Virus record (IMG/VR): IMGVR_UViG_3300018868_000009
Location: 1 to 45,909 of that record
DNA length: 45,909 nucleotides
Source: a virus
Reading direction: 5' to 3' (one strand)
The notes under the pieces are model-generated. The model was not told the origin of the DNA. It saw only the letters and a program-made list of their open reading frames with translations, and made no database searches. Within the stretch, counting starts at the first letter, position 1. Every line of letters starts with the position of its first letter. A program made the position numbers and the translations under genes. Shown here one piece after another: positions 3,733 to 37,014 of this stretch.

Positions 3733-4461
3733 TTACGTTTCGCTTAATGTGCCATATAGTCCATCAAAAACCAGATAGTGTTCTAATGCTTCTCTGATGA
3801 CAGACCATTCTTGTAAGAATCGAATACTGAGAATTAATCGAGGTTTCTTGGCGGTCCAGTTTAAAGCATGGAGTTTATCGGTTCTGACAAAACTGGCATA
3901 TTCATTAAACTTGGTTAATTCATTACATCTATAAACTGGTTCACCCACGGTAGCCCAGCGTTCTTCTATAGAATTACCTTTTACTTGAGCTCTTGGTGAT
4001 TTTTTATCTGGATACTCTGGATGTTGAAATTCAACTATGTGAATACTAGGTTCATTCTGCCATGGTACTATAGTATCCCACCAAACCATTTCTTGGTCAT
4101 CATCTCCATTCAGAAGAATATTAAACCGAGCAGGAACAATCTCTTTGATTCCTTCGTGAGTATCAATATGTGGATTACCACGAATATCTTTTCTGGCTTC
4201 CATACTCTTATACACAAAGAACTGTATACGAGAAGTGTCAGGAACTAATCCAAGGCGTTCAAAGTGTTTGTTAATTTCTTGCCATGCATCAGAACTCAAC
4301 CATTCAAGTTTTTGTTCTGTTGATAATGGATCGTATAGTAGTCCTGAATGACCAATACCCTTCTCTTGAAACTCCTGTACCAGCGGATCGGTAATCGCCT
4401 TAATCCAATCTAAACTCTCTTGACTAAGTTTAAAGGGTATAGTGTAGTATGGAATATCCAT
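3733..4461 (-). CDS. 2OG-Fe(II) oxygenase-like protein, 242 aa
   Basis: The protein looks like a 2-oxoglutarate/Fe(II)-dependent hydroxylase of the double-stranded beta-helix fold. The iron-binding facial triad is visible as H98-I-D100 in GNPHIDTHEG and a distal His in RTDKLHALNWTA near residue 207. An Arg in KKPRLILSIRF is placed to bind 2-oxoglutarate. The arrangement resembles the aspartyl/asparaginyl-hydroxylase-like enzymes of marine T4-like phages. The substrate cannot be read from sequence. It is the last of three such genes (with 4463-5143 and 5310-6080) downstream of a radical SAM gene, which suggests a shared modification pathway or a shared regulatory unit. Confidence 0.7.
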   Translation of the reverse strand: MDIPYYTIPFKLSQESLDWIKAITDPLVQEFQEKGIGHSGLLYDPLSTEQKLEWLSSDAWQEINKHFERLGLVPDTSRIQFFVYKSMEARKDIRGNPHIDTHEGIKEIVPARFNILLNGDDDQEMVWWDTIVPWQNEPSIHIVEFQHPEYPDKKSPRAQVKGNSIEERWATVGEPVYRCNELTKFNEYASFVRTDKLHALNWTAKKPRLILSIRFLQEWSVIREALEHYLVFDGLYGTLSET

Positions 4462-4462
4462 T

Positions 4463-5143
4463 TTAAATGTCGTATACTGAAAATATTAAATGTGTTCTAA
4501 TTTCTCTTGACGGTGATATATTAATAGCATTGTGGTTCACATTAGTTTCTAAAAACCAAACTCGACCATCTGCTGGTATATGAACCACTTTAATCTCATC
4601 ACCATCTTCAGCCATCATAAAGGAATAATCATTCGTTGTCAAGGCTATATGATATCTAATTGTGGTGTGTGGATCGATGTGTAAATGAAAGGATGCTGAC
4701 GGACCTAATGTGGCACCATGGATCCAACGAATCTGTCCTTTACCATAAGTCTTGGTGTGGTAATCTTGTAATTGGTCTGTTATCACTTTGATATAGGAGT
4801 TGGCAACTAAGTCATCCATCTCCGTAAATTCTTCTGTAGATAAGTTAAAGTTTCTCATCAAATACTCTTGGCCGGAAGTAAGTGGTCCAACAAACTTGGA
4901 TCTAAATTCTCCATTCTTATCAATACAGGCTTGTGGTATATTTTTAGGATGAGTAAAGTTGATGGTTGATTGGTTGTGTTTAATCTCCGTACCAGAAACT
5001 AAACCGTTCTCTGTATAACCTACAGCATTACCGATATCAATAACATCCTTCTTTAATCTCTCCAAATCGATTATCAAAGGTATTGGGTCAATTAACTTAT
5101 CAACTTTATCATAAGTAACTAATTGTTTATTTTTTATATTCAT
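4463..5143 (-). CDS. Aspartyl/asparaginyl hydroxylase-like 2OG oxygenase, 226 aa
   Basis: The C-terminal 90 residues carry the hallmarks of the Asp/Asn beta-hydroxylase family. These are H155-I-D157 in SFHLHIDPHTTIRYH, then the small-residue/hydrophobic strand GRVWFLETNVNHNAIN with H204 as third iron ligand, and Arg213/216 in SREIRTHLIF as likely 2-oxoglutarate contact. The N-terminal 140 residues are not recognisable. Marine T4-like phages often carry such enzymes; proposed targets include peptides or nucleotides, but none is established here. Its start overlaps the end of the 55-aa gene upstream. Confidence is high for the fold, low for the substrate. Confidence 0.75.
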   Translation of the reverse strand: MNIKNKQLVTYDKVDKLIDPIPLIIDLERLKKDVIDIGNAVGYTENGLVSGTEIKHNQSTINFTHPKNIPQACIDKNGEFRSKFVGPLTSGQEYLMRNFNLSTEEFTEMDDLVANSYIKVITDQLQDYHTKTYGKGQIRWIHGATLGPSASFHLHIDPHTTIRYHIALTTNDYSFMMAEDGDEIKVVHIPADGRVWFLETNVNHNAINISPSREIRTHLIFSVYDI

Positions 5144-5294
5144 GTATAGTACCTAGAATTGCCATACTGTGGGTTCCAGCAATACCTTGTGCTCTATAAT
5201 AAAGGTGTGTTGGTCCATAATCTAAGTCCAATTCGATCTGTTCTGTTAATGGCCAAAAAAACTTAATCTCTTGTTGATTGAAATTGGTAAACAT
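5127..5294 (-). CDS. Hypothetical protein, 55 aa
   Basis: This frame has an ATG at 5294 and a TAA at 5127, overlapping the next gene's start by 17 bases. The translation (MFTNFNQQEIKFFWPLTEQI, then DYGPTHLYYRAQGIAG and an Ala/Ile-rich end) is protein-like. A possible ribosome binding site (GGAG) precedes it. It lies between two 2OG oxygenase-like genes and may be their small partner, but no function can be assigned. Confidence 0.6.
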   Translation of the reverse strand: MFTNFNQQEIKFFWPLTEQIELDLDYGPTHLYYRAQGIAGTHSMAILGTIHEYKK

Positions 5295-5309
5295 AAATTC
5301 TCCAAAAAA

Positions 5310-6080
5310 TTATTTGAAATGTTCTACTAGTCCTGTTTTTTTTAAAAAATCCAAACTAAAAACTCCATCGATCCTAAGACTAAAACCCATCACCTCACTT
5401 GGTTCACCGCCATGCCATTGGTGATTATCAAATGTTGATATGTAACCTTTTGCAAAATGTTTTTCTTGTGTGTCAGCATCATAAACGAAAAAATCTTTTT
5501 GTTTGTTAAATCGAATCCATAGAAACTGGTCTTTCATTGACTTTTCTGAATAATCTCTATGTATTGGGGTATAATTTCCTTCGGGGTTTAAAAATACTAC
5601 GACACGACCAATTTCATTAAAAAATCTCTGATTATTAATCCAGTCAAATAAAAAATCAAAATCTTTTCTTGGTGGCATATCCTTAGTTTCACTATCTAAA
5701 TGCTTTCGATGAAACTTACCACTATTTCCTCCTAAAGATTTATCCAATGACCTAATAGCCAAGGCCTGATTTAATGACCTACTTTTTGTTGTTAATAAAG
5801 TATAAAACAATTGTTGGTCATGAGATAACAAATTCCATTCTTCTTCATCTTTTAGTTTTTCATTGACACCAACCCAACAAGTTTTTACCTCAACAAAATT
5901 TTTATTAATTAACCAAGTGCGACCCACAGCATCTTCAGGACCACTAAATGCAATTGTAATATTTTTTTTGTTTCTTGCAATGGCATAAGCCATTTTCTTT
6001 TCCAAATCGGATATATCATTAAGATTAAAATACTCATCCAATTCGAACATTGCGTTTTTTAATATTGGAGCATAAATCAT
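5310..6080 (-). CDS. Cupin/2OG-oxygenase-like protein, 256 aa
   Basis: The C-terminal half resembles an Fe(II)/2OG oxygenase: H174-R-D176 in NYTPIHRDYSEK, a beta strand FLWIRFNKQKDFFVYD, then STFDNHQWHGGEP (H220 or H223 as the third ligand) and FSLRIDG with Arg236. The N-terminal 130 residues are unlike the two neighbouring oxygenases, so this is probably not a recent duplicate. It overlaps the radical SAM gene by four bases (ATGA), so the two are translated together; a joint role in a modification or biosynthesis step is a reasonable inference. Substrate unknown. Confidence 0.6.
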   Translation of the reverse strand: MIYAPILKNAMFELDEYFNLNDISDLEKKMAYAIARNKKNITIAFSGPEDAVGRTWLINKNFVEVKTCWVGVNEKLKDEEEWNLLSHDQQLFYTLLTTKSRSLNQALAIRSLDKSLGGNSGKFHRKHLDSETKDMPPRKDFDFLFDWINNQRFFNEIGRVVVFLNPEGNYTPIHRDYSEKSMKDQFLWIRFNKQKDFFVYDADTQEKHFAKGYISTFDNHQWHGGEPSEVMGFSLRIDGVFSLDFLKKTGLVEHFK

Positions 6081-7564
6081 TTTAATCCCCGATGTTTTAT
6101 CTTTAAGTTTATATAAGTTTGACCTTTATTTAAAATCTCTTGTCTAAACTTATTCCTAGCCATATCAGCCGTATCTGATTCCAGAACTTCCGTATCTGAT
6201 AATTTTATAAAATAGGTACTCTTTACTCTTGGTCTAAATTGATCCAGTTGTTCAGTTACACTTTTTGATATTTCATTGGCTTTAGAGGAACTCATACTCT
6301 CATGTTCCCATCTTAGTCCAGAATTGTTTTCTTTAAAATTAACAATTTTAATTCCAAACTTTTCAGGATTCAAAGACATTTCACTTTTCCACACATTAAA
6401 CTTTTGATTGTCAATAGACAAACTTTTAAAGTGTACTTCTTCCCACAAATCTGAATTATCCAGAAACCATTGTTTTGCTTCGTGTACAGATTCTTCTGTT
6501 TCTCCTGGTAAACCAATAATCATTTCAAATAATATATGACTATCAGGATTCTTTTCCTTAAATTCTTTAAGACATTCTTTTAGTTTATTTGGATCAGCAC
6601 CTTTGCCAATTTTTTTACCGGCATTTCTATTAAAAGTTTCAACACCAAAACTAAAATATTTCCAACCAATTTGGCCAACGAGATCCATCATTTCTGGTTT
6701 GGATGCTATTAGGTCTAAACGACCATAAGCCCAAAAGTCAAAAGGTCCAACTTCATCATGAACCTCTTTCATCATTCTCATTTTCTCAACAGTATCATTA
6801 AAAGTATCATCCATAAAAAAATAACGATTACTCTTATACTGCTCTTGATACAATTTAATATCTTCTGCTATCTGTTCTTTAGGTCTTACATAATCATTCT
6901 TGGTTTTTCCGTTGAGTGGAAAAGCACAAAAAGAACATTTAAAAATGCAACCTCTCGATATCTCTAAAGGTAAGACTTCATTAGGTTGTATAAAATCGGT
7001 TTCATGGAATCTAGTTTGTATATCAGTTACATCATTTACTGGATAAGACTCTTGGCAATTTATAGATTTACATTCATATGATATTCTTTTATTATAAAGT
7101 GTACCAATAGTTTCGGTTGTAAATTTTAAATCATTATTTTTGCCAGAAATATAATCCGATAAGGCAATAATGGCAATATCAGCATAACCATTAACAATCC
7201 AATCAGCATCATAAATCCATTTCATTCTTTCAGCTTTACTACCACCTATAACGATTGGTGATCTCTTTTTAATTTCTTCCCAAAAACCCCAATCGTCATC
7301 AAATCTAGTTATCTTGTCGTGATAAACTCTTTGACCTGGTTTATATTCTTGTTTACCTGGACCCATAAAGGTGGAACTAAAACCAATCCATAATGGCTTA
7401 GGTCCAGCGTCAATATAATCCAAAAGTTCTTGTGGTTTCCAAAATGAAAGATAATCTATAACTTCAACATCATAATTATATTTTCGTAATTCCGTGGCCA
7501 ACCTATAAGCACCTAGTGTTCTAGGTCCGGTCATGGGTGGAGAATCAGTTAATAAGTAAATCAA
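6077..7564 (-). CDS. B12-binding-type radical SAM enzyme, 495 aa
   Basis: The N-terminal 190 residues look like a cobalamin-binding-type Rossmann domain (MIYLLTDSPP, LATELRKYNYDVEVIDYL, SPIVIGGSKAER), although the classic DxHxxG motif is not seen. A radical SAM barrel follows, with the [4Fe-4S] motif C206-x3-C210-x2-C213 in EISRGCIFKCSFCAF, a YFFMDDTFN strand and FSFGVETFN. This layout is typical of B12-dependent radical SAM enzymes that methylate or rearrange unreactive carbons. The start codon appears to be TTG at 7564, overlapping the GroES-like stop; the next in-frame ATG (residue 11) would cut a conserved strand. It is coupled to the oxygenase gene that follows. The substrate is unknown. 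Confidence 0.8.
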   Translation of the reverse strand: MIYLLTDSPPMTGPRTLGAYRLATELRKYNYDVEVIDYLSFWKPQELLDYIDAGPKPLWIGFSSTFMGPGKQEYKPGQRVYHDKITRFDDDWGFWEEIKKRSPIVIGGSKAERMKWIYDADWIVNGYADIAIIALSDYISGKNNDLKFTTETIGTLYNKRISYECKSINCQESYPVNDVTDIQTRFHETDFIQPNEVLPLEISRGCIFKCSFCAFPLNGKTKNDYVRPKEQIAEDIKLYQEQYKSNRYFFMDDTFNDTVEKMRMMKEVHDEVGPFDFWAYGRLDLIASKPEMMDLVGQIGWKYFSFGVETFNRNAGKKIGKGADPNKLKECLKEFKEKNPDSHILFEMIIGLPGETEESVHEAKQWFLDNSDLWEEVHFKSLSIDNQKFNVWKSEMSLNPEKFGIKIVNFKENNSGLRWEHESMSSSKANEISKSVTEQLDQFRPRVKSTYFIKLSDTEVLESDTADMARNKFRQEILNKGQTYINLKIKHRGLK

Positions 7565-7821
7565 TCTTCAAAAACTAAAACTACGTCATCCTCATTTATG
7601 ATCCAGAGGTCTTGATTCTCATATTTGGTCTGGCGCCCAGCATTCCAGTTAGGAAGAATGCTATCACCAATCTTGAGGTCTAATACTTCTGGCCCCACGG
7701 CAAGGATCACTCCACGGTTAACCTCATCTCGGTCAGCCACAGATAATACGATTCCTGATTTGGTAATCTTTTCTTTTTGGATCAATTCCACAAGGAGATT
7801 ATTTCTGATAGGTTTTAACAT
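7561..7821 (-). CDS. GroES/gp31-like co-chaperonin, 86 aa
   Basis: The protein has the cpn10 fold signature: MLKPIRNNLLVELIQKEK at the N-terminus, a mobile loop that would contact GroEL (TKSGIVLS), RGVILAVGPE, a loop ending ILPNWNAGRQTKYE, and the closing strand DLWIINEDDVVLVFED. At 86 residues it is slightly shorter than bacterial GroES (about 97). T4 gp31 and RB49 CocO replace host GroES for folding the major capsid protein, and this is probably its counterpart. No GroEL gene is present, so it would act with host GroEL. It overlaps both neighbours. Confidence 0.85.
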   Translation of the reverse strand: MLKPIRNNLLVELIQKEKITKSGIVLSVADRDEVNRGVILAVGPEVLDLKIGDSILPNWNAGRQTKYENQDLWIINEDDVVLVFED

Positions 7822-8038
7822 TGTTCTCTTTCAATTTTCTACATCCATCAATAACTTCGGTCGGCACATCTGGATGCCAACCTCCCAATAACATATCACA
7901 ATTATAACGGACTGTTACTGGTTTGTCAAACATTCTGTGGTAATCTTCATTCTGGACAAAACCAAACGCAGTAGAGATCAGCAAGATTGCGGCAATCAAT
8001 TTTAAGGGTTCGATTATATCTCTTATATCTCTGAACAT
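7799..8038 (-). CDS. Small membrane-anchored or secreted protein, 79 aa
   Basis: After a charged start (MFRDIRDIIEP) there is one hydrophobic segment at residues 13-29 (LKLIAAILLISTAFGFV), then about 50 hydrophilic residues containing two cysteines that could form a disulfide in the periplasm. This fits a single-span inner membrane protein with a periplasmic tail. Its start codon overlaps the previous stop (TAATG). No family recognised. Confidence 0.65.
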   Translation of the reverse strand: MFRDIRDIIEPLKLIAAILLISTAFGFVQNEDYHRMFDKPVTVRYNCDMLLGGWHPDVPTEVIDGCRKLKENNVKTYQK

Positions 8039-16302: not shown

Positions 16303-16626
16303 TTAAACATTAAATGATGAGCCACATCCGCAGGTGCTTTTAACTTCTGGATTGGATATGACAAATTGTGAATTAAATTTTTCTTCTTTATAATCTAATG
16401 TTGCGTCCATTAAATATTGTGCTGACATGGAATCAACAAATACTTTAACATCATCTTTTTCAATCACAAAATCATCTTCTTCTTGATTTTCATCAAAACT
16501 AAATTCATATTGAAATCCTGAACAACCTCCTCCTTTTACGGACATTCTTAATGCCATATTAGGATTCTTTTCTTCTACAATCAAATCTTTTATTTTACTA
16601 AATGCATTATCGGTTACTTTAACCAT
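16303..16626 (-). CDS. A-type Fe-S carrier (IscA/ErpA-like), 107 aa
   Basis: The protein has the three invariant cysteines of A-type carriers: C35 in KGGGCSGFQYEF, and C99 and C101 in STCGCGSSFNV at the very C-terminus. Length (107) is exactly that of bacterial IscA. A-type proteins carry iron or Fe-S clusters to target enzymes. Such genes are known in marine T4-like phages, often labelled 'HesB-like'. Its G+C content is low (18 of 60 bases in a sampled stretch), like the rest of the phage and unlike the adjacent iscU. Confidence 0.9.
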   Translation of the reverse strand: MVKVTDNAFSKIKDLIVEEKNPNMALRMSVKGGGCSGFQYEFSFDENQEEDDFVIEKDDVKVFVDSMSAQYLMDATLDYKEEKFNSQFVISNPEVKSTCGCGSSFNV

Positions 16627-16627
16627 T

Positions 16628-17011
16628 TTATACCTTACATAAACATTTGAGTTTGTAATCTTTTATCGCTGCTTTAATCGCATCTTCAGCAAGTATTGAG
16701 CAGTGGATTTTGACTGGTGGGAGAGCAAGTTCCTCCGCAATCTGAGAGTTCTTAATCGATCCTGCCTGCTCAAGCGTTTTACCTTTGACCCACTCGGTAA
16801 CAAGGCTCGAGCTAGCAATAGCCGATCCGCAACCGTAAGTTTTAAATTTTGCATCTGTAATAATCCCATCTTTTACTTTGATTTGGAGCTTCATTACATC
16901 ACCACACGCTGGAGCACCCACCATACCGGTGCCAACAGTATCATCAATTTCCATCTTACCTACATTTCTAGGATTTTCATAATGATCCAATACTTTTTCT
17001 GAATAAGCCAT
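16628..17011 (-). CDS. iscU: IscU Fe-S cluster scaffold, 127 aa
   Basis: The sequence is a complete IscU. It begins MAYSEKVLDHYENPRNVG and keeps the three cluster cysteines C36 (GAPACGDVMK), C61 (YGCGSAIASSS) and C104 (VKIHCSILAEDA), with D38, H103 and the LPPVK motif (97-101) bound by HscA. It should accept sulfur from host IscS and use host HscA/HscB, since neither is encoded here. The C-terminus KCLCKV has two extra cysteines. I chose the ATG at 17011 (ribosome binding site GAAGGATAAA, homologous start) over an upstream in-frame codon at 17038. Its G+C content (28 of 60 in a sampled stretch) exceeds that of neighbouring genes, suggesting fairly recent capture from a proteobacterium. Confidence 0.9.
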   Translation of the reverse strand: MAYSEKVLDHYENPRNVGKMEIDDTVGTGMVGAPACGDVMKLQIKVKDGIITDAKFKTYGCGSAIASSSLVTEWVKGKTLEQAGSIKNSQIAEELALPPVKIHCSILAEDAIKAAIKDYKLKCLCKV

Positions 17012-17012
17012 T

Positions 17013-18797
17013 TTATCCTTCGCATGCAATACAATCATTGCCTTGGGCTATTTGTGTCATATCTAATTCTTTAATGACATTTCTTTCAATCTTCTTGGAA
17101 ACTTTATCTGCCTTACCAATCTTTTCAGAACGGCAATAGTATAATGTTTTCAATCCTTTTTTCCATGCCATAAAGTGAACAGCATGGATATACTTAATGT
17201 GAACATCTGGTCTAAAAAATAGATTTAATGATTGTGCTTGATCAATATATGCTTGGCGGTCAGCAGCAAGGTCGATAACCCAACGCTGGTCAATCTCCAT
17301 GGAAGTTTTGAACACATCCTTTTCAGCTTCACTTAAAATATCTAAATGTTGGCATGATCCATCGTTTGCAATAATGCTGGACCAAATATCAGCATAGTCC
17401 TGCTCATCTTTTGATTTTTCTTTGACAATCTTATCCAGCCAACGGTTCTTGTTTAAGAAAGAGCCCGAAAGAGTATCCTGCCGATAAGCATTGGCACGGT
17501 AAGGTTCAATACTAGGACTAGTATTCCCCATGATAATGGAAGAAGAAGCATTGGGAGCAATAGCCATAAGATGACTAAACCTACGACCGGTACCAGCCGC
17601 ATCAGGAGCTTCACCTCTCTCGGTACCCAATTCAATGTTCGCTGCATCTAAACCCTTTCGAATAGTTTTAAATATCTTGTTATTGGCTACTTTGGCCATA
17701 ACTCCTTCAAAAGCGATCCCGTTACGTTGTAGATAAGCATGAAAGCCGAGAGCGCCGATACCAATAGAACGCTCTCGTTCAGCGGAGTATCTAGCCCTAG
17801 AGATAGCGTCAGGAGCATTAGCAATGAAGTAATTAAGCACGTTATCAAGCATTTCAGCCACATCTTTAAGAAAAAGTTTATTGTTTTTCCATTCATCATA
17901 GGTCTCCAAATTTAAGCTTGATAAACAACATACGGCAGTTCTCTGTTCGTTTGTTGGTAAAATGATTTCTGAGCAAAGGTTTGATTGGTGTACCTTCAAT
18001 CCTTTTTCTTTTAGAAAAGATGGAAGTTCACGGTTACTTGTATCAATATAGTGAATATAAGGTTCACCTGTATTCATACGAATCTCTAACAGTTGTTGCC
18101 ATAGGTGTCGAGCAGATACCACTTCACGGATTTCTCCTGAGTGTGGATCCTTTAGTTCCCAATCATCACTTGCTTCGGGATCTAACATACATCTTTCCAG
18201 AATTTGCATGAAAGCATCGGGAATGTTTACACCATGGTGGAGATTCAAACAACGAACATTTGGATCGCCTGTCGGCTTTCGCATTTCTAAAAAAGAAATG
18301 ATATCAGGATGAGATATATCAAGGTAAGCGGCATAAGAACCACGCCGAGTGCGACCTTGGCGATAGGCCAAAGAACTCGCATCGTAAATTTTGAGATGAG
18401 GCATAACGCCTGTTGACTTATCATCAGCAGCACGGATACCAAATCCGATACCAACACCGCCGCCAAGCATAGAGAGCCAATTAGTTTCCGAAAGGTTATC
18501 AACTAATCCCTCCGCAGTATCTTCAATATAATTAAGGAAGCATGATATAGGCATGCCACGCTTACTACGACCAAAAGAGAGAATGGGAGTAGAATAAGAG
18601 AGCCAATGTTTACTGCTGTATTCATATAATCTTTGTGCATGATCTAAGTTTGTTCCAAATGATTTTGACACGAAAGCGAACCTGTGTTGTGGAGAAGTTT
18701 CATCTTCTCGCATATAAGATTCTTGAAGCCTTTTGATTCCAAGTTCATCGAATAGTTCATCTCGCTTTAAATCTATGTTGATGCCAAAATAATCCAT
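17013..18797 (-). CDS. nrdA: Ribonucleotide reductase large subunit, class I, 594 aa
   Basis: NrdA contains the catalytic site of class I ribonucleotide reductase. Visible residues: C86 (GMPISCFLNY) and C290 or C291 (TAVCCLSSLNL) as the redox pair, N273, C275 and E277 in SNLCSEIILPT for radical chemistry, the Tyr pair in LKTLYYCRSEK for radical transfer, and a C-terminal CIAC pair that takes electrons from thioredoxin or glutaredoxin. At 594 residues it is much shorter than E. coli NrdA (761) and has no obvious N-terminal ATP-cone, so dATP feedback inhibition is probably lost. The start is set at the ATG 18797 behind AAGG. Confidence 0.9.
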   Translation of the reverse strand: MDYFGINIDLKRDELFDELGIKRLQESYMREDETSPQHRFAFVSKSFGTNLDHAQRLYEYSSKHWLSYSTPILSFGRSKRGMPISCFLNYIEDTAEGLVDNLSETNWLSMLGGGVGIGFGIRAADDKSTGVMPHLKIYDASSLAYRQGRTRRGSYAAYLDISHPDIISFLEMRKPTGDPNVRCLNLHHGVNIPDAFMQILERCMLDPEASDDWELKDPHSGEIREVVSARHLWQQLLEIRMNTGEPYIHYIDTSNRELPSFLKEKGLKVHQSNLCSEIILPTNEQRTAVCCLSSLNLETYDEWKNNKLFLKDVAEMLDNVLNYFIANAPDAISRARYSAERERSIGIGALGFHAYLQRNGIAFEGVMAKVANNKIFKTIRKGLDAANIELGTERGEAPDAAGTGRRFSHLMAIAPNASSSIIMGNTSPSIEPYRANAYRQDTLSGSFLNKNRWLDKIVKEKSKDEQDYADIWSSIIANDGSCQHLDILSEAEKDVFKTSMEIDQRWVIDLAADRQAYIDQAQSLNLFFRPDVHIKYIHAVHFMAWKKGLKTLYYCRSEKIGKADKVSKKIERNVIKELDMTQIAQGNDCIACEG

Positions 18798-30842: not shown

Positions 30843-31538
30843 TTAAAACTTGGATCCTTCAAAATCCAACCAATAGGTGTTTATTTGACCTTTACCACGC
30901 AATGCATAGAATGGTAAAGTATGCATTAAACCTCTACTGGAGTTATAGTATATCAAATTTTTAGGGCTTTCGTCAAGTGCCCAAGCAAAATGTGTTGTTC
31001 CTGTGTCACCACCTACGAATGTTTCCGAGGTCATAATGTGGTAAATATTGGTTAGAAAGTCGGTGCTGGTTTTCCATCCATCGACCTGTATATCCGTTGG
31101 ATGACAAATGATCTTTTCGTGGTCCATATATTCTTCGGAACTATATTGTTGAAGTATCGATTCAAATACTGGCTTTGGCCAATTTCGGTAAGTATTGTAA
31201 GGTGCGTCAAGTAAAGGACAAACAACAATCTTCTTTTGCATCTTTTCTTTATTTGGTATTTTTACCAAATCTCCAGAGATATCTCTAAAGTCCCAAAGAT
31301 TTATGTTTTTCCAATTTAACTTTTCTGTGCCAGGTTGTGCTGAGAAGTAATCAGTATTTAAAATCATCCATCGATGAAAATCCCTAACATATTCAGCTGG
31401 ACTTAAACCGTCCATCAAAATGTGGAATTTTAAATTTGGATTATCTTTTCTGAGGTATTCAACAACATTAGCAATAGCAACCAAATCGCCATTGCGAATA
31501 CAATTGCCGAATACTCCACATTCGATATTGAGAATCAT
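30843..31538 (-). CDS. GT9-like glycosyltransferase, 231 aa
   Basis: The protein resembles heptosyltransferase-type (GT9, GT-B fold) enzymes: an N-terminal GNCIRNGDLVAIANVVEYLR, a central strand IVVCPLLDAPYNTYRNWP, and the C-terminal donor-site motif TFVGGDTGTTHFAWALDESP. At 231 residues it is shorter than cellular GT9 enzymes (about 320). It overlaps the upstream gene by four bases. It is the last gene of the glycan cassette. Sugar and acceptor unknown. Confidence 0.65.
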   Translation of the reverse strand: MILNIECGVFGNCIRNGDLVAIANVVEYLRKDNPNLKFHILMDGLSPAEYVRDFHRWMILNTDYFSAQPGTEKLNWKNINLWDFRDISGDLVKIPNKEKMQKKIVVCPLLDAPYNTYRNWPKPVFESILQQYSSEEYMDHEKIICHPTDIQVDGWKTSTDFLTNIYHIMTSETFVGGDTGTTHFAWALDESPKNLIYYNSSRGLMHTLPFYALRGKGQINTYWLDFEGSKF

Positions 31539-32272
31539 ATTACCAAATCTTTTACATACACCAATTTTGCATTACGGTCACCGTAGTAATGTCGTTTGAA
31601 ATCAAATTCAACACCATGGCCATCCCAAATTCTCATATCTTCATCCCAACAAACAATCGTTTCTTTGTGCATTAAGTCAGCAATGATACCGATGCCTGTA
31701 AATGTGGTGATAAAAGGTTTAGGACTATTCTTAATGAGATTTAGATTATACATGATCGGTTTTGTATAGTCAAGATAAAACACTTCATTGGGATCAAGAT
31801 TTGTTCCACCTTCGACCACATTTGTATTTCTTCGTGTATCTATATTAGGATCTTGTTTTGATGACCATCGATCACCAATGATTGTTTTAGTGATAGTTTC
31901 AATTTCAGCATCAACCATTGGATCAACTTCAATTTCAAAATCATCATCAACTTTAAAATCTAATTGATAATTGTCACGAACCCAATTTTCATATCGACAA
32001 GTTTCGATTGGTCGATCTGCTGCTTCTTGGTCCATGCGAGTCCATGAACTAATTGTTAATATATCACCATAGTTAAAGACCTCATCGTGAAAATATACTT
32101 CACTAAACATGGGTTGATATTTTAAAAACTGTTTGATGCCGGCAAATTTTCTCATTTCTGGCCGAATAAACAATTCAATCTTTTGGTCAAAACGTTTTGA
32201 TATTCCTGAGATCACAGGTAAAGCATTACAAAAGTCGCCTAAGTTGGCGGTGCAATCAATCCTCAGCTTCAT
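31535..32272 (-). CDS. GT9-like glycosyltransferase-related protein, 245 aa
   Basis: The ATG at 32272 has a strong AGGAG seven bases upstream. The start MKLRIDCTANLGDFCNALPV has the Gly-Asp-x-x-x-x-x-P pattern of heptosyltransferase N-termini, and PFITTFTGIGIIADLMHKET resembles the donor-site region. Together with the next gene it may form a pair of related enzymes. It overlaps the preceding HtrL/YibB-like gene by 17 bases. Sugar specificity unknown. Confidence 0.55.
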   Translation of the reverse strand: MKLRIDCTANLGDFCNALPVISGISKRFDQKIELFIRPEMRKFAGIKQFLKYQPMFSEVYFHDEVFNYGDILTISSWTRMDQEAADRPIETCRYENWVRDNYQLDFKVDDDFEIEVDPMVDAEIETITKTIIGDRWSSKQDPNIDTRRNTNVVEGGTNLDPNEVFYLDYTKPIMYNLNLIKNSPKPFITTFTGIGIIADLMHKETIVCWDEDMRIWDGHGVEFDFKRHYYGDRNAKLVYVKDLVI

Positions 32273-33059
32273 TAAAACTCCTAAGTGCGACAAACCAATC
32301 TTGGTCATTAACTCGATGTAATTCGAAAAATTCAGGCTTTTGTAAATATGCCATCAATAATAATGTTTGATCATCATCCACCAAACCATTTTTAAATAAG
32401 TCATCAAGACTGTGGTGTACCAATCCTTCTAATATTGGCCACATCTCTTTACCTGCAACGATACAAGGACCTGTGATGTGAACATCATTATTTGATATTA
32501 CATCTTGGATGAATGTTCCATCAACCCAATCTTTAATGTTGAAAAGGTGAATTTTGTTTTTATCAAAAGAATATTCCCACCTTTTGTTTCCACCTAAGGT
32601 ATTTTCATCACGGCAATAACCAAAGTCCAGCCAAGCAACTAAATCAGTTTCAATGATGTTGGATTGTATGGCACGATTGACAAAAGCAGATTTTAAAGCA
32701 TTGACGAGAACGTAGTCAGCATTCCAATATTCTGGATTTTTTACTTGCATGGGATTTATTTTAGCTTGATAATCGGGGTTCGTTTGTACCTTTTTGATTT
32801 CTTCCCTGAGCATTTTAAAACTTTCGGGAAAATCAAGCGTAAGAATTTCGGTTGGTCGATCTTGGCGGAGAAACTTAATCTCATCGACCATATCTTTTGA
32901 TGTATATACCACCATATCGTTTTCAAGTTTAGCCATGTGACTAAATCTTTCTAGATAGGTTTCATTTGTTCTTTGTAGGTAATGTGGTAATCCTTTATCG
33001 GGACTCCATTCACCACGGCCAATGTCAAAGAAAGCTGTTACAATTGTAATATCATTCAT
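32256..33059 (-). CDS. HtrL/YibB-like glycan-locus protein, 267 aa
   Basis: The N-terminus NDITIVTAFFDIGRGEW matches the HtrL/YibB family, which is found in lipopolysaccharide core loci and has a GT-A-like glycosyltransferase look. Further features are MVVYTSKDMVDEIKFLR, the central VAWLDFGYCRD (candidate DxD-like site), and HITGPCIVAGKEMW. The molecular function of the family is not firmly known. It starts four bases before the end of the methyltransferase gene upstream. Confidence 0.65.
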   Translation of the reverse strand: MNDITIVTAFFDIGRGEWSPDKGLPHYLQRTNETYLERFSHMAKLENDMVVYTSKDMVDEIKFLRQDRPTEILTLDFPESFKMLREEIKKVQTNPDYQAKINPMQVKNPEYWNADYVLVNALKSAFVNRAIQSNIIETDLVAWLDFGYCRDENTLGGNKRWEYSFDKNKIHLFNIKDWVDGTFIQDVISNNDVHITGPCIVAGKEMWPILEGLVHHSLDDLFKNGLVDDDQTLLLMAYLQKPEFFELHRVNDQDWFVALRSFNEAED

Positions 33060-33613
33060 TTTTTTCTCAATACAAAAATTCTGTTGTCATAACTTGCGTC
33101 ACTACCCGTGTCAATAAACTCAAAATCGCAGTTGGGAGGAATAACTTTTATAAACTCACCAACCGCAGCAACACTTTCAATATCTTCAATTATCAATATA
33201 CCACCAGTTTTTAATTTTGGCAAATATAATTTAATACATTCAACTTGTGAATCTACGGAGTGTGGACCATCATCAATAACAATGTTCAATTCAGGAAGTG
33301 AATTTACATATTCTACACTATAAGCATCAGCAATGTCAATTTTTATGTTTGGAACATCTTTAGTATTATTCTTCGATTCTCCATTCCAATCATTAATGTC
33401 AACGCCATAGATGTGTCCGTTTGGAAAGTAATCACTCCATAATAATAAACTACCACCTTTTAATATACCAATTTCCAATAAATTAACTTCTTGGCCTTGA
33501 AATTTTAAGAATTCTTTACCGCATAATAAAGAAAGATATTTGTGTTTAGATTCTTTATCTGTGTTATGATATTTGTCAGGATTTTTGTCATGCAATTCAG
33601 CAAGAGTTTTCAT
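33056..33613 (-). CDS. Class I SAM methyltransferase, 185 aa
   Basis: A Rossmann-fold methyltransferase: motif I is VNLLEIGILKGGSLLLWSDY (SAM-binding, E-x-G), followed by HIYGVDINDW, NIVIDDGPHSVDSQVECI and GGILIIEDIES. The pattern I-D-D-G-x-H and the length suggest a sugar or macrocin-type O-methyltransferase (TylF-like). It sits among glycosyltransferases, so a sugar O-methylation is plausible. Overlaps both neighbours by four bases. Confidence 0.75.
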   Translation of the reverse strand: MKTLAELHDKNPDKYHNTDKESKHKYLSLLCGKEFLKFQGQEVNLLEIGILKGGSLLLWSDYFPNGHIYGVDINDWNGESKNNTKDVPNIKIDIADAYSVEYVNSLPELNIVIDDGPHSVDSQVECIKLYLPKLKTGGILIIEDIESVAAVGEFIKVIPPNCDFEFIDTGSDASYDNRIFVLRKK

Positions 33614-34347
33614 TCGTAATAAAATTTCTTATAATTATTAATAATTTCAATTTCGGGTGGTTGATTACTTATAAAGGTTTCATAATCAAATCCTGGTTGA
33701 TGATTATGTGTATCTGCACGATGTGGATTAACTGAATAATCTTTACCAGCCAAAAAGTAATATACATTCATAAAACAATCAATATAACCAATCGTTGGAT
33801 AAACCATTTGAATCATGTCAAAGTATTTTTTGAACCATTCAATATTACTATCATAATGTTCTAAGAATGTGGATACTTTAAATATTGAACCACCACCAGC
33901 ACCATACTGTGTAAATGTTGGTCGTTTGCCACAATGTATTTCAATCATTTCAATTACAGTTTCGGGAATATGATTACCAATCTTTGTATCAGCACAAGCG
34001 TGTTCCCAACTCTCATCAATCGTAATAGGTTTAATTATTAATACATCATCTTCAACCATCATCATATATGGTGACGTTGCATTGAGGCAAGCCGTTTTAA
34101 ATCTTTCTAGAAATCTTAGTGTTTTATCCAAATCATAACCAATTGGTGGTACAGGACCACCCAAAGGATTATCGTATATAACATAATCACACTTATTATC
34201 TTCAGCCATCTTTTGAAATTCTAACTTTCGACCATCGATGGCTAAGAAATAGTAATTATAAAAATGGTGTTTCTTTATATTCTGTATAATACATTCGGTT
34301 GATTTCGGATAAACCGAAGCAATGTGAAAAAAGTCAGGACTAAACAC
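33610..34347 (-). CDS. GT-A-type glycosyltransferase, 245 aa
   Basis: The protein has the profile of a GT-A glycosyltransferase. An N-terminal FHIASVYPKSTECIIQNIKK is followed by NYYFLAIDGRKLEF, then SPYMMMVEDDVLIIKP, where E-D-D-V would be the metal-binding DxD. TQYGAGGGSIFKVSTF and YIDCFMNVYYFLAG lie in the acceptor region. The apparent start is GTG at 34347, eight bases inside the upstream gene; the next ATG would remove the first conserved strands. Donor and acceptor unknown. Confidence 0.6.
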   Translation of the reverse strand: MFSPDFFHIASVYPKSTECIIQNIKKHHFYNYYFLAIDGRKLEFQKMAEDNKCDYVIYDNPLGGPVPPIGYDLDKTLRFLERFKTACLNATSPYMMMVEDDVLIIKPITIDESWEHACADTKIGNHIPETVIEMIEIHCGKRPTFTQYGAGGGSIFKVSTFLEHYDSNIEWFKKYFDMIQMVYPTIGYIDCFMNVYYFLAGKDYSVNPHRADTHNHQPGFDYETFISNQPPEIEIINNYKKFYYE

Positions 34348-34867
34348 GTTTGAGCACCGTCAATCCATTATTGTTAGTTAAACGGCAAACCATTTCCCAT
34401 TCAGGATGGATGTCCATGAACTCTTGAATTGCTGGCCAAATACCTTTGCCGCCAAACTCACCATTAAATTCATAAGATGTAGTATCATGAAATCCAATAA
34501 ACTTTTTAGCTTTATCAGCATGAAGCCTTAATTCTTCTTGTACCTGCTCATAGATGTGTAGGCTATCAACAAATAAGAAATCAGTAGGTTCAATTTCAAT
34601 CTTCCTTGTGTCAGCAATGTGTAGAGTTACATTTCTACCTGAATTTTTGGCTTCTTCAAAGAATTCTGGAATACCCGGTTGCGGACTGAATTCGTAACTG
34701 TGTAATTCAACATCGTGATTTAGAAACGCTCGAGTGCTTTGAGCCCAACCAACACCAAGTTCGGTAACATGACTACATTCAGAAGTTAACATCGACAATA
34801 GTGGCAAATGTTCATGTATGTCGGTAACTCTATCGCAAGCTTCTTCGTATTCTTTTTTAAAGTCCAT
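34340..34867 (-). CDS. Class I SAM methyltransferase-like protein, 175 aa
   Basis: The start is set at ATG 34867, behind AGGA. The fold is suggested by SHVTELGVGWAQSTRAFLNH (motif I), VELHSYEFSP, then TDFLFVDSLHIYEQVQEELR and KKFIGFHDTTSYEFNG. This resembles the methyltransferase family 24 group often found beside glycosyltransferases. One of three methyltransferase-like genes in the cassette. Substrate unknown. Confidence 0.65.
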   Translation of the reverse strand: MDFKKEYEEACDRVTDIHEHLPLLSMLTSECSHVTELGVGWAQSTRAFLNHDVELHSYEFSPQPGIPEFFEEAKNSGRNVTLHIADTRKIEIEPTDFLFVDSLHIYEQVQEELRLHADKAKKFIGFHDTTSYEFNGEFGGKGIWPAIQEFMDIHPEWEMVCRLTNNNGLTVLKRV

Positions 34868-34868
34868 T

Positions 34869-35726
34869 TTAAGTCCTATAAACAAAATAATTATTCGGGT
34901 CTTCCTGATTATACTTCTTCATAATAAACTCTCGCCATTCGGGAACACGATCATACTGATGAACGATTGAAAAAGGAACTCCCAAGGATGTTTTAACAAT
35001 ACCATTTTCAAAGGTTGGTGGAGCTTCAAGTAGTAGTGGTCTGAATTGTTCAATTTTGGATGGGTCTACCGTGGTACCAGCTTGGCAGGCCCAGCCGTTA
35101 AGTTGTTTTGCAAAGTAAATAATATCTTTATATGGTTGTGTTTGTATCAACACATTATAAACGGCTTGGTCTACGATTGGAATGGGTCTACCAATGGCGT
35201 TTGTGAAGATATTGAACACCAAATCTTTCACATATTCAGATGTACCACCGATGGTTCCAACATTGTAGATTTCATTATCTTTAAACTTATTATAAACATA
35301 GTCACCGTAAGTTTGTAATAGGTTTTCATTACCCCACGGTTCATCTTTATATTTCATACCTTCGGAACCAGCAACCAATTTATACTTTTGTCCTAATTTA
35401 GATTCTAACCATTTCATAGGATTGGTTTGAAAGTAAACATCTTTTACATCCGTGGTTACCACATAACGATATTTTTGCCAATTGGTACTGAGATAATCAT
35501 AGATAGATAAAAATCTAGCCACATGGATTGGTGCATTGGTTTGAATCATTGGTACTACGATGAATTTTCGTTTGATTAATTCTAGTGTGGTTTCTTTTGA
35601 AGCATTACCAACGACCATCACTTTATCGCCAGTAAATCCACATTCATCGATTGATTCAACCCAAGGTTTTAACTGGTTATAGTTATAGTTTGTGAAGGCA
35701 CCGATGATAAGGTCTTTTTGCGCCAT
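34869..35726 (-). CDS. GT-A-type glycosyltransferase-like protein, 285 aa
   Basis: The protein has the look of a nucleotide-diphospho-sugar transferase: DLIIGAFTNYNYNQLKPWVE, then YRYVVTTDVKDVYFQTNPMK, where D-V-K-D occupies the DxD position. EIYNVGTIGGTSEYVKDLVF and IVDQAVYNVLIQ follow, typical of the acceptor half. It begins 58 bases before the end of the upstream GT2 gene, an unusually long overlap for this genome. Sugar unknown. Confidence 0.6.
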   Translation of the reverse strand: MAQKDLIIGAFTNYNYNQLKPWVESIDECGFTGDKVMVVGNASKETTLELIKRKFIVVPMIQTNAPIHVARFLSIYDYLSTNWQKYRYVVTTDVKDVYFQTNPMKWLESKLGQKYKLVAGSEGMKYKDEPWGNENLLQTYGDYVYNKFKDNEIYNVGTIGGTSEYVKDLVFNIFTNAIGRPIPIVDQAVYNVLIQTQPYKDIIYFAKQLNGWACQAGTTVDPSKIEQFRPLLLEAPPTFENGIVKTSLGVPFSIVHQYDRVPEWREFIMKKYNQEDPNNYFVYRT

Positions 35727-36427
35727 GGGAAATCTCCATTATATTTGTCATTCATTATATTATTTCCATTAAGAAAGAATTCTTTAGAAACGGAACCTGC
35801 ATTACCAGCAACTCGATAGTTTACTGTATATTCATTTGTGCAATCGAATTTGGGAAAGTATTGTGCTACTGTTTGAAAAAATACTCTATCTTGACCCCAA
35901 CCACCATGCCACGCAGAGGCCAATTTTATCGCAATTTCTGTTTTGAGGCAATAACTATTGGTATCGATATGATTGACACCATGATAAGTTTGCCACTTTC
36001 CCAATGATTCACAATCATCATGGCAAATAAAATCTATACTTTCATAGATGTCACGGAGAGAATAACACCAATCCAACTTTTTATCTTCTATTGTTTTGAT
36101 GCAGGATTCTACATGGTTAGGTTTCAACCAATTATCTTGGTCGAGATATAACACATAATCAGTATTAACCAAATGAGTGAAAGCGGCATATACACGATGG
36201 CCATAGAAACCATTGGCTCCCACATTCAAAGGCAAATTACAAACAAATATCTTTTTATAGTTTGGATGCATTTCAAATACTCTTATATGATTTTTTACTG
36301 CATGAACAAAATCAGGACCATCACAAACAATATAACACTTAGTATCATAAGTTTGATCCAATACAGATTCAATAGCATCATAAACTGTTGGTGCACCCGT
36401 TGTGGGTATAATTACTGTTGCGCTCAT
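35669..36427 (-). CDS. Glycosyltransferase family 2 protein, 252 aa
   Basis: A classical GT2 fold: SATVIIPTTGAPTVYDAIES and VLDQTYDTKCYIVCDG at the N-terminus, NVGANGFYGHRVYAAF, then TDYVLYLDQDNWLKPNHVES with D-Q-D as the metal site, and AWHGGWGQDRVFFQTV near the acceptor loop. The start is the ATG at 36427, which overlaps the previous stop (TAATG). It transfers a sugar from a nucleotide donor; the acceptor is unknown. The C-terminal 19 codons overlap the next gene. Confidence 0.8.
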   Translation of the reverse strand: MSATVIIPTTGAPTVYDAIESVLDQTYDTKCYIVCDGPDFVHAVKNHIRVFEMHPNYKKIFVCNLPLNVGANGFYGHRVYAAFTHLVNTDYVLYLDQDNWLKPNHVESCIKTIEDKKLDWCYSLRDIYESIDFICHDDCESLGKWQTYHGVNHIDTNSYCLKTEIAIKLASAWHGGWGQDRVFFQTVAQYFPKFDCTNEYTVNYRVAGNAGSVSKEFFLNGNNIMNDKYNGDFPWRKKTLSSVPSQTITITS

Positions 36428-37014
36428 TACCATTTCCAAAATAATTGATAACCATCATGACACAAAGGTCGACCACTTTTTTGCATATAATCAAACACGA
36501 ATTGACCTTTGCCGGCCAACTTGCCGTTATCAATCCAATTATCATCTACACCAATCAATGCACCACCAGATAAAGAAGGTGCAATCGTAAGTAATTCATA
36601 TAGATGGTGTAAGGCACTCATATAAACAACATCAGGTTCATCCCTCGGAGCATCAAAACTGTCCAAGTAAAGAAAATCAATTTTTCTTTTACTATCTAAA
36701 AAATGTTGATTGAGTTTTTTTAAGTAGGTGATACTATCAGATTCCACAACGGTTGTTTTATTAGAAACTTTACTTTGGCAATATTGAACACTCTCTTTGG
36801 CCAAATCTACTGTGTAAAAATCTCCACCATATTCAGAAATGTATTTGTCGAACATTAAACTGCTTTGTCCGTCACCTTCATAGTTGTTTTCTTGACGAGC
36901 ACAACCAGTTTCTACTATTAGGGGATTTTGGCGTTGTTTTAAAAAATCAAAGATATAATCAAATCCACTTTGTCGATGGCCAAGTCTACTCCTCACATCA
37001 TCATAAAATTTCAT
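36427..37014 (-). CDS. Class I SAM methyltransferase-like protein, 195 aa
   Basis: Motif I is NPLIVETGCARQENNYEGDG, followed by SLMFDKYISEYGGDFYTVDL, KIDFLYLDSFDAPRDEPDVV and GGALIGVDDNWIDNG. The pattern is that of class I methyltransferases, probably acting on a sugar or small molecule given the neighbours. It is the first gene of the glycan cassette, three bases after the stop of a replication-region gene, so no separate promoter is evident. Confidence 0.65.
   Translation of the reverse strand: MKFYDDVRSRLGHRQSGFDYIFDFLKQRQNPLIVETGCARQENNYEGDGQSSLMFDKYISEYGGDFYTVDLAKESVQYCQSKVSNKTTVVESDSITYLKKLNQHFLDSKRKIDFLYLDSFDAPRDEPDVVYMSALHHLYELLTIAPSLSGGALIGVDDNWIDNGKLAGKGQFVFDYMQKSGRPLCHDGYQLFWKW

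Follow-up and report, generated by a model that had tools for sequence, protein, structure and literature searches.

The stretch of DNA analysed here, referred to as the window, is a 45.9 kb fragment of a T4-like phage, a virus of aquatic bacteria. Six genes follow one another on its minus strand in the order GroES, radical SAM enzyme (rSAM), OxC, ORF55, OxB and OxA. The intergenic distances are -4 bp for GroES/rSAM, -4 for rSAM/OxC, +15 for OxC/ORF55, -17 for ORF55/OxB and +1 for OxB/OxA. The cluster coordinates given in a preliminary description of the locus proved correct throughout, as did its statement that the first oxygenase gene (OxC) overlaps the rSAM gene by four bases. Because neighbouring phage genes are equally spaced, the four-base overlap and the tight spacing alone were not taken as functional evidence. 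The first gene of the unit (7561-7821, minus strand) encodes a GroES-like co-chaperonin (Cpn10), recognised by PF00166 (E=2.4e-13) and phrog_3188 (E=1.2e-17), which probably stands outside the pathway. A candidate promoter (7901-7929, minus strand) with a perfect sigma-70 consensus (TTGACA-17 nt-TATAAT, 12/12) sits within an upstream 79-aa ORF and is directed into all six genes. All 12 consensus positions are also matched at the corresponding site (position 6836) of the closest phage, L002, and overlapping coding sequence may also account for this conservation.

The rSAM gene (6077-7564, minus strand, 495 aa) begins with a TTG start within its 4-bp overlap with GroES. The protein contains a radical SAM domain, as seen from PF04055 (E=1.5e-19) and the cysteine motif C206-x3-C210-x2-C213, and a DTFND motif lies at 253-257. 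All three cysteines of CxxxCxxC are invariant in an alignment of eight rSAM homologs, in which no DxHxxG motif is visible. The earlier label of a B12-type enzyme fits the family better than the window protein: the B12-binding domain PF02310 is matched by 7/8 homologs (best E=1.4e-7), but only weakly by the protein itself (E=0.18). By family membership it looks like a cobalamin-type enzyme, for which activity and the binding of cobalamin and a 4Fe-4S cluster are predicted. The PhpK-family B12 radical SAM P-methyltransferases (TIGR04479) are the top NCBIfam match of the window rSAM (E=2e-21) and of most of its relatives. However, the score of 75.8 bits against a cut-off of 600 places the protein outside that family, and assignment as a PhpK P-methyltransferase was rejected, the match covering mainly the rSAM domain.

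The three remaining enzymes had been described as proteins with H-x-D...H signatures. When sequences of this length are shuffled, 31% of them still carry a loose HxD/E...H...R pattern, and motif counting was consequently dropped as evidence. The signatures were instead judged genuine from their invariance among distant homologs of each protein, and they are accompanied by fold or profile support. In OxC (5310-6080, minus strand, 256 aa, no Pfam family), H174, D176, H223 and R236 are invariant in an alignment of 10 sequences, down to 23% identity. In OxB (4463-5143, minus strand, 226 aa), the corresponding residues are H155, D157, H204 and R216 (4 sequences), and in OxA (3733-4461, minus strand, 242 aa, no Pfam family) they are H98, D100, H198 and R208 (7 sequences). 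Thus, each protein has the metal triad HxD/E...H and a distal Arg/Lys for 2OG. Their little similarity to each other, also remarked upon earlier, is borne out by their profiles, which do not detect one another in the window.

The double-stranded beta-helix is seen in OxC by fold, in OxB by a profile match to Cpz10 and, more weakly, in OxA. All fold matches are remote, with TM about 0.4 and about 10% identity. The AlphaFold2 model of OxC (pLDDT 79, pTM 0.81) forms a double-stranded beta-helix and matches solved 2OG-oxygenase folds with Z up to 12, AspH-type and prolyl-hydroxylase-like folds being among the structure matches. The OxA model (pLDDT 68) gives a weaker 2OG-oxygenase match (Z 8.8), and its top fold matches are AviO1, EvdO2, KanJ and PHD2, the first three of which are antibiotic-pathway enzymes. 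Neither the OxC nor the OxA profile gave a meaningful match among PDB sequences. OxB resembles Asp/Asn-beta-hydroxylases, and its match to PF05118 (E=0.0024) remains below the curated cut-off (18.2 vs 22.6 bits), making it only a relative of that family rather than a member. This relationship is supported by the profile match to Cpz10 (PDB 7v4f, E=1.1e-15), the best solved relative; the next is the free-L-proline cis-4-hydroxylase cis-P4H (4p7w, E=0.006). Cpz10 hydroxylates a glycyluridine intermediate of caprazamycin (PMC9814697), and the relationship of OxB to it extends across about 124 residues and includes a shared metal-binding pattern. Cpz10, however, belongs to a nucleoside-antibiotic cluster, whereas other caprazamycin genes were not seen in the window. 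The combined alignments and models support the description of OxA, OxB and OxC as Fe(II)/2OG oxygenase-like proteins with predicted activity.

ORF55 (5127-5294, minus strand), a 55-aa ORF, had been suggested as a small partner or even a substrate peptide, and the latter role does not fit its distribution. It appears to be a truncated version of a 92-aa ORF found in L002 (10605-10883; 81% identity over 47 aa, pS 0.75, pN 0.16), its end being overlapped by OxB. L002, in which OxB and OxA are missing from the equivalent position, is the only relative found with it; beside the rSAM-OxC pair of L004-L007 it is absent, and no match was obtained in phage records. ORF55 was therefore rejected as a RiPP precursor, no conserved precursor peptide being present beside the enzymes, and it is probably a bystander.

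A tblastn search of 50,697 annotated phage records with all four enzymes of the cluster returned no match. The rSAM-OxC pair, including its overlap, is present in L002, L004, L005 and L006/L007 and is kept down to 48% identity. The identities of rSAM and OxC to the window drop together, being 88 and 80% in L002, 63 and 59% in L004, 48 and 48% in L005, 48 and 49% in L006, 32 and 34% in L014, and 32 and 23% in L017, respectively. Comparison of the window with L004 gives dN 0.30 and dS >2 for both genes, which indicates strong constraint. Single-sequence scans of viral contigs with OxA and OxB found nothing; this reflects strict seeds, because profiles later found both proteins in L004-L006. Likewise, a pattern scan of bacterial genomes gave no relative of OxC, strict seeds making this weak evidence of absence.

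Clustering was assessed on 29 phage contigs by counting genes within 5 kb of an rSAM, with random placement as the null. Such proximity was found for 9/12 OxC genes (expected 2.8), 25/37 OxB/PF05118 genes (expected 8.2) and 16/26 fatty-acid desaturases (expected 5.3), each about threefold over chance (P<=0.0004 in all cases), although random placement is a weak null that ignores shared ancestry and the general tendency of phage accessory genes to cluster. The conserved pair and this clustering agree with the earlier view of a pathway-like set rather than isolated genes. Independent occurrence in relatives, which would speak against that view, is found in part: OxB/PF05118/OxC matches are missing on 8/29 rSAM contigs, and OxC occurs on the 21-22 kb contigs L015 and L016, where no rSAM is present, yet the rSAM-OxC pair is conserved. 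The set is therefore modular rather than fixed. The window cluster contains tailoring enzymes only, whereas richer related phage clusters add PP-loop proteins, GARS-type ATP-grasp ligases, a ketosynthase, GNAT acetyltransferases, a desaturase, and PhyH and TauD oxygenases, with up to ten oxygenases.

The reading preferred here, to which roughly even chances are assigned, is that the cassette constitutes a minimal phage-borne module for tailoring a small molecule. In its favour are the kinship of OxB with Cpz10, the antibiotic-pathway enzymes matched by OxA, the conserved rSAM-OxC pair, the clustering around rSAM, the biosynthesis-like genes of the richer phage clusters and the NRPS genes beside bacterial rSAM homologs. 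The operon, probably driven by the conserved promoter of sigma-70 type (7929-7901), would yield one cobalamin-type rSAM and three Fe(II)/2OG oxygenases. The rSAM-OxC pair forms the core of this model: since the two genes overlap and remain linked in widely diverged phages, their products most probably work one after the other on a single substrate. A chemically demanding reaction at a C-H bond (such as methylation or formation of a C-C bond) would fall to the rSAM, and hydroxylation of its product to OxC, OxB and OxA. Enzymatic activity and the order of steps are predicted here, as is a free small-molecule product. No scaffold-building gene (NRPS, ketosynthase or ligase) was recognised near the cluster in the window, itself a fragment outside which ligases or desaturases may lie, and consequently only a host-made substrate could be tailored, most likely an amino-acid-, nucleoside- or lipid-derived metabolite. 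During infection, the product might make the host more competitive, inhibit rivals or control metabolism. The points against small-molecule tailoring are the missing scaffold-building genes, the separable genes, the remote fold matches, the normal phage spacing, the weak null of the clustering analysis and the placement of NRPS-linked homologs in another clade.

The main rival, considered unlikely, is tailoring of membrane lipids or LPS, in which host acyl chains or lipid A would be altered by hydroxylation, methylation or desaturation, which might serve to prevent superinfection or adjust the membrane. The clustering of desaturases with the rSAM family suits this explanation, as does the ketosynthase adjoining OxC in L015. 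A paralog in L004 is nearest to the lipid 2-hydroxylases OlsC (E=2.5e-5) and LpxO (7e-5), and the window rSAM matches the lipid-type B12-rSAM models TIGR04072 (E=7e-15) and HpnJ (E=3e-13), but all NCBIfam scores are far below their cut-offs. Moreover, the window cluster is without any lipid-type gene, OxB has no match to the LpxO/OlsC models (NCBIfam) while its family matches Cpz10, and the PP-loop proteins and ATP-grasp ligases of relatives do not suit lipid tailoring.

It is improbable that the enzymes modify a phage or host protein post-translationally by hydroxylation and C-methylation, whether in a RiPP-like manner or on tail fibres. AspH-type and prolyl-hydroxylase-like folds have protein substrates in other systems, the L004 cluster runs on into tail-fibre-like genes, and rSAM relatives weakly match RiPP C-methyltransferase models. 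Nevertheless, OxB and OxA find their best matches among small-molecule enzymes, the desaturases, ketosynthase and ligases of relatives do not fit, and the only candidate precursor, ORF55, is not conserved. It is quite improbable that the locus is a hypervariable region in which unrelated accessory oxygenases have collected without sharing a pathway, for instance to deplete 2OG, as has been suggested for cyanophages. The genes are separable, and the part of the literature consulted describes 2OG oxygenases as common in T4-like phages and proposes 2OG modulation (PMC3037559). Against such a gathering stand the retention of rSAM-OxC and its overlap in divergent phages and the excess of clustering specifically around rSAM. 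Some phages modify their bases by means of oxygenases and radical enzymes, and the rSAM domain weakly matches MiaB/RimO-type models. Base modification, raised in the preliminary description and considered here as TET/JBP-like oxidation or rSAM methylation in phage DNA or tRNA, is nevertheless very improbable: TET_JBP is matched by none of OxA, OxB and OxC at E<=1, their closest solved structures are small-molecule or protein hydroxylases, PP-loop neighbours in relatives match QueC only weakly, and a B12-binding domain is recognised at the N-terminus of most rSAM family members.

Small-molecule tailoring by a phage has a predicted parallel in jumbo cyanophages such as S-SSM6a, for which a 2OGFeDO-rich secondary-metabolite cluster has been proposed (PMC7824862). 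Both cases concern T4-like phages with several 2OG oxygenases and predicted making or decorating of secondary metabolites or glycans. The S-SSM6a-type cluster differs in being based on carbamoyltransferases, a halogenase and HAD phosphatases, with radical SAM unmentioned (PMC7824862), whereas the core partner in the window is an rSAM of probable B12 type. Cyanophages and pelagiphages likewise carry several small 2OG-Fe(II) oxygenases, but in the portions of those reports consulted these are mostly treated as single auxiliary genes, and pairing with a B12-type rSAM is not described there (PMC3037559, PMC11561400). Among the open-licence papers searched, none on phage clusters of B12-type rSAM and oxygenases was found.

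Oxygenases are among the commonest unexplained genes of aquatic phages, and their link to one B12-type rSAM family delimits a unit of two to four genes amenable to expression and assay. Should a small molecule be made, phages would be directing host chemistry that depends on vitamin B12, which is scarce in many waters, and phage-borne biosynthesis would reach beyond prophage bacteriocin-type clusters and the earlier predicted cyanophage cluster. A broader proposal, tentative and somewhat short of an even chance, is that a large, virus-dominated family of cobalamin-type rSAM enzymes, together with oxygenases dedicated to them such as OxC, forms modular, natural-product-like clusters in aquatic phages, through which infected cells make phage-specified small molecules. 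Relatives of the rSAM are encoded on >500 viral stretches. Bacterial homologs are rare; those of Vallitalea and Ca. Endobugula sertula have NRPS genes as neighbours and fall in a different clade from that of the window rSAM, which is all viral. One bacterial contig, L117, carries two rSAM genes and two PF05118 genes together with TauD-like and desaturase genes.

The operon on the minus strand of the window is best accounted for as a predicted small-molecule tailoring cassette, because of the solved relatives of its enzymes, its biosynthetic neighbours and its modular behaviour. The 45.9-kb window is a piece of a T4-like phage genome; its DNA polymerase shares about 51% identity with those of Synechococcus T4-like phages, and the nearest match of its ribonucleotide reductase is from an Alcaligenes phage (62%). 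The gene order is GroES, a 495-aa radical SAM protein (rSAM, 7564-6077), the oxygenase-like OxC (6080-5310), a 55-aa ORF (5294-5127), and the oxygenase-like OxB (5143-4463) and OxA (4461-3733). Successive intergenic gaps are -4, -4, +15, -17 and +1 bases, the second confirming the four-base overlap of rSAM with the first oxygenase noted in the preliminary description. A perfect sigma-70 consensus, a candidate promoter, lies upstream of GroES (7929-7901) and occupies an equivalent place in the closest phage relative, L002; because the site overlaps a short protein-coding ORF, coding constraint may account for some of this conservation.

The rSAM protein is predicted to be B12-type by family, as previously proposed, because its PF04055 match is clear, three cysteines are invariant among homologs, the DTFND motif is retained apart from a single conservative substitution, and a B12-binding domain is visible in seven of eight homologs. 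No subfamily can be assigned, since the top NCBIfam model, of PhpK type, scores 76 bits, far below the cut-off of 600. As for the H-x-D...H signatures, motif counts provide no evidence, since the loose HxD...H...R pattern matches 31% of shuffled proteins; what stands is that these residues in OxA, OxB and OxC are each invariant among that protein's own homologs. The OxC model is a double-stranded beta-helix (pLDDT 79, pTM 0.81) whose structural matches to 2OG oxygenases reach Z 12. OxB scores slightly below the PF05118 cut-off, and its family profile matches L-proline cis-4-hydroxylase (E=0.006) and Cpz10 (E=1e-15), the caprazamycin-pathway enzyme that hydroxylates a glycyluridine intermediate (PMC9814697). 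Judged from its model (pLDDT 68; top folds EvdO2, KanJ and AviO1, Z 8 to 9), OxA would be the least supported 2OG oxygenase of the three.

The overlapping rSAM-OxC pair recurs in L002 and in the relatives L004, L005 and L006/L007. Identity to the window drops in parallel for both proteins, and both are under strong purifying selection. OxA and OxB homologs are nearby in L006 and an OxA homolog in L005. In L002 neither accompanies the pair up to the end of the contig, 1.3 kb further on; the L002 rSAM frame is split into two ORFs, through either assembly error or decay. The rSAM family was confirmed in at least 521 viral stretches versus 17 bacterial or archaeal loci. Among the matches listed, an OxA, OxB or OxC match occurs in the flanks of 20 of 45 dereplicated viral loci. 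Across 29 contigs of at least 43 kb, window included, matches within 5 kb of rSAM numbered 9 of 12 for OxC (2.8 under random placement), 25 of 37 for OxB/PF05118 (8.2) and 16 of 26 for desaturases (5.3); eight contigs had neither OxB/PF05118 nor OxC. With the four closest contigs removed, 5 of 7 OxC matches remained near rSAM (expected 1.1, P=0.002). Random placement keeps neither relatedness nor general accessory-gene clustering, so the P values of these comparisons are optimistic.

These desaturases, together with an LpxO/OlsC-like oxygenase paralog in L004, make lipid or LPS tailoring a serious rival. The cassette could also act on proteins; nothing positive speaks for base modification. 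Richer versions of the cluster occur in other phages. In L004, two rSAM genes and some ten oxygenase-like ORFs are found together with a desaturase, PP-loop proteins, GNATs, PhyH- and TauD-type genes and a pair of GARS-type ATP-grasp ligases. L017 and L022 have similar gene sets, and in L015 a ketosynthase adjoins OxC. Among bacteria, NRPS genes lie next to rSAM homologs in Vallitalea sp. and Ca. Endobugula sertula, an asparagine-synthase-like gene adjoins the Enhygromyxa homolog, and a 349-kb contig (L117) groups rSAM, PF05118, TauD and desaturase genes. The window's rSAM clade is all viral and the NRPS-linked homologs are placed elsewhere in the tree, so they serve as a parallel in family context rather than as orthologs.

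The abundance of 2OG oxygenases in aquatic phages is already known (PMC3037559, PMC11561400), and an oxygenase-rich secondary-metabolite cluster was predicted earlier in jumbo cyanophages (PMC7824862). No report of oxygenases paired with a B12-type rSAM family was found in the literature searched. Methylotroph phages from Lake Baikal that carry methanol dehydrogenase were reported to have radical SAM proteins, which were ascribed to PQQ synthesis (PMC7678222). One 104-kb phage contig carries both a PQQ-type methanol-dehydrogenase-like ORF (L014, 712-2577) and a B12-type rSAM (L025, 15884-17395); if the Baikal proteins are of the same kind, their assignment may need review.

Elsewhere in the window, IscA/ErpA-like (107 aa) and IscU-like (136 aa) ORFs, named from sequence, adjoin the ribonucleotide reductase genes (16303-17038, minus strand) and could possibly supply Fe-S to rSAM; similar pairs lie near the rSAM cluster in L005 and L006. 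A run of glycosyltransferase- and methyltransferase-like ORFs (30843-37014, minus strand) suggests a second, glycan-related cluster. The 49-kb phage contig of L068 has eight FA_desaturase genes, several near rSAM. Five tandem rSAM-family genes followed by adenylate-forming-ligase-like genes in a gammaproteobacterial genome bin (L118, 51-9464) may represent an uncharacterised bacterial gene cluster. TctC-type periplasmic binding protein genes adjoin rSAM in several phage contigs, for example at L039 (3989-4918), and make up 5 of 138 neighbour proteins. In one clade (L061, L064, L099 and L111) phage-encoded Hsp70 and Hsp20 genes directly flank the rSAM gene.
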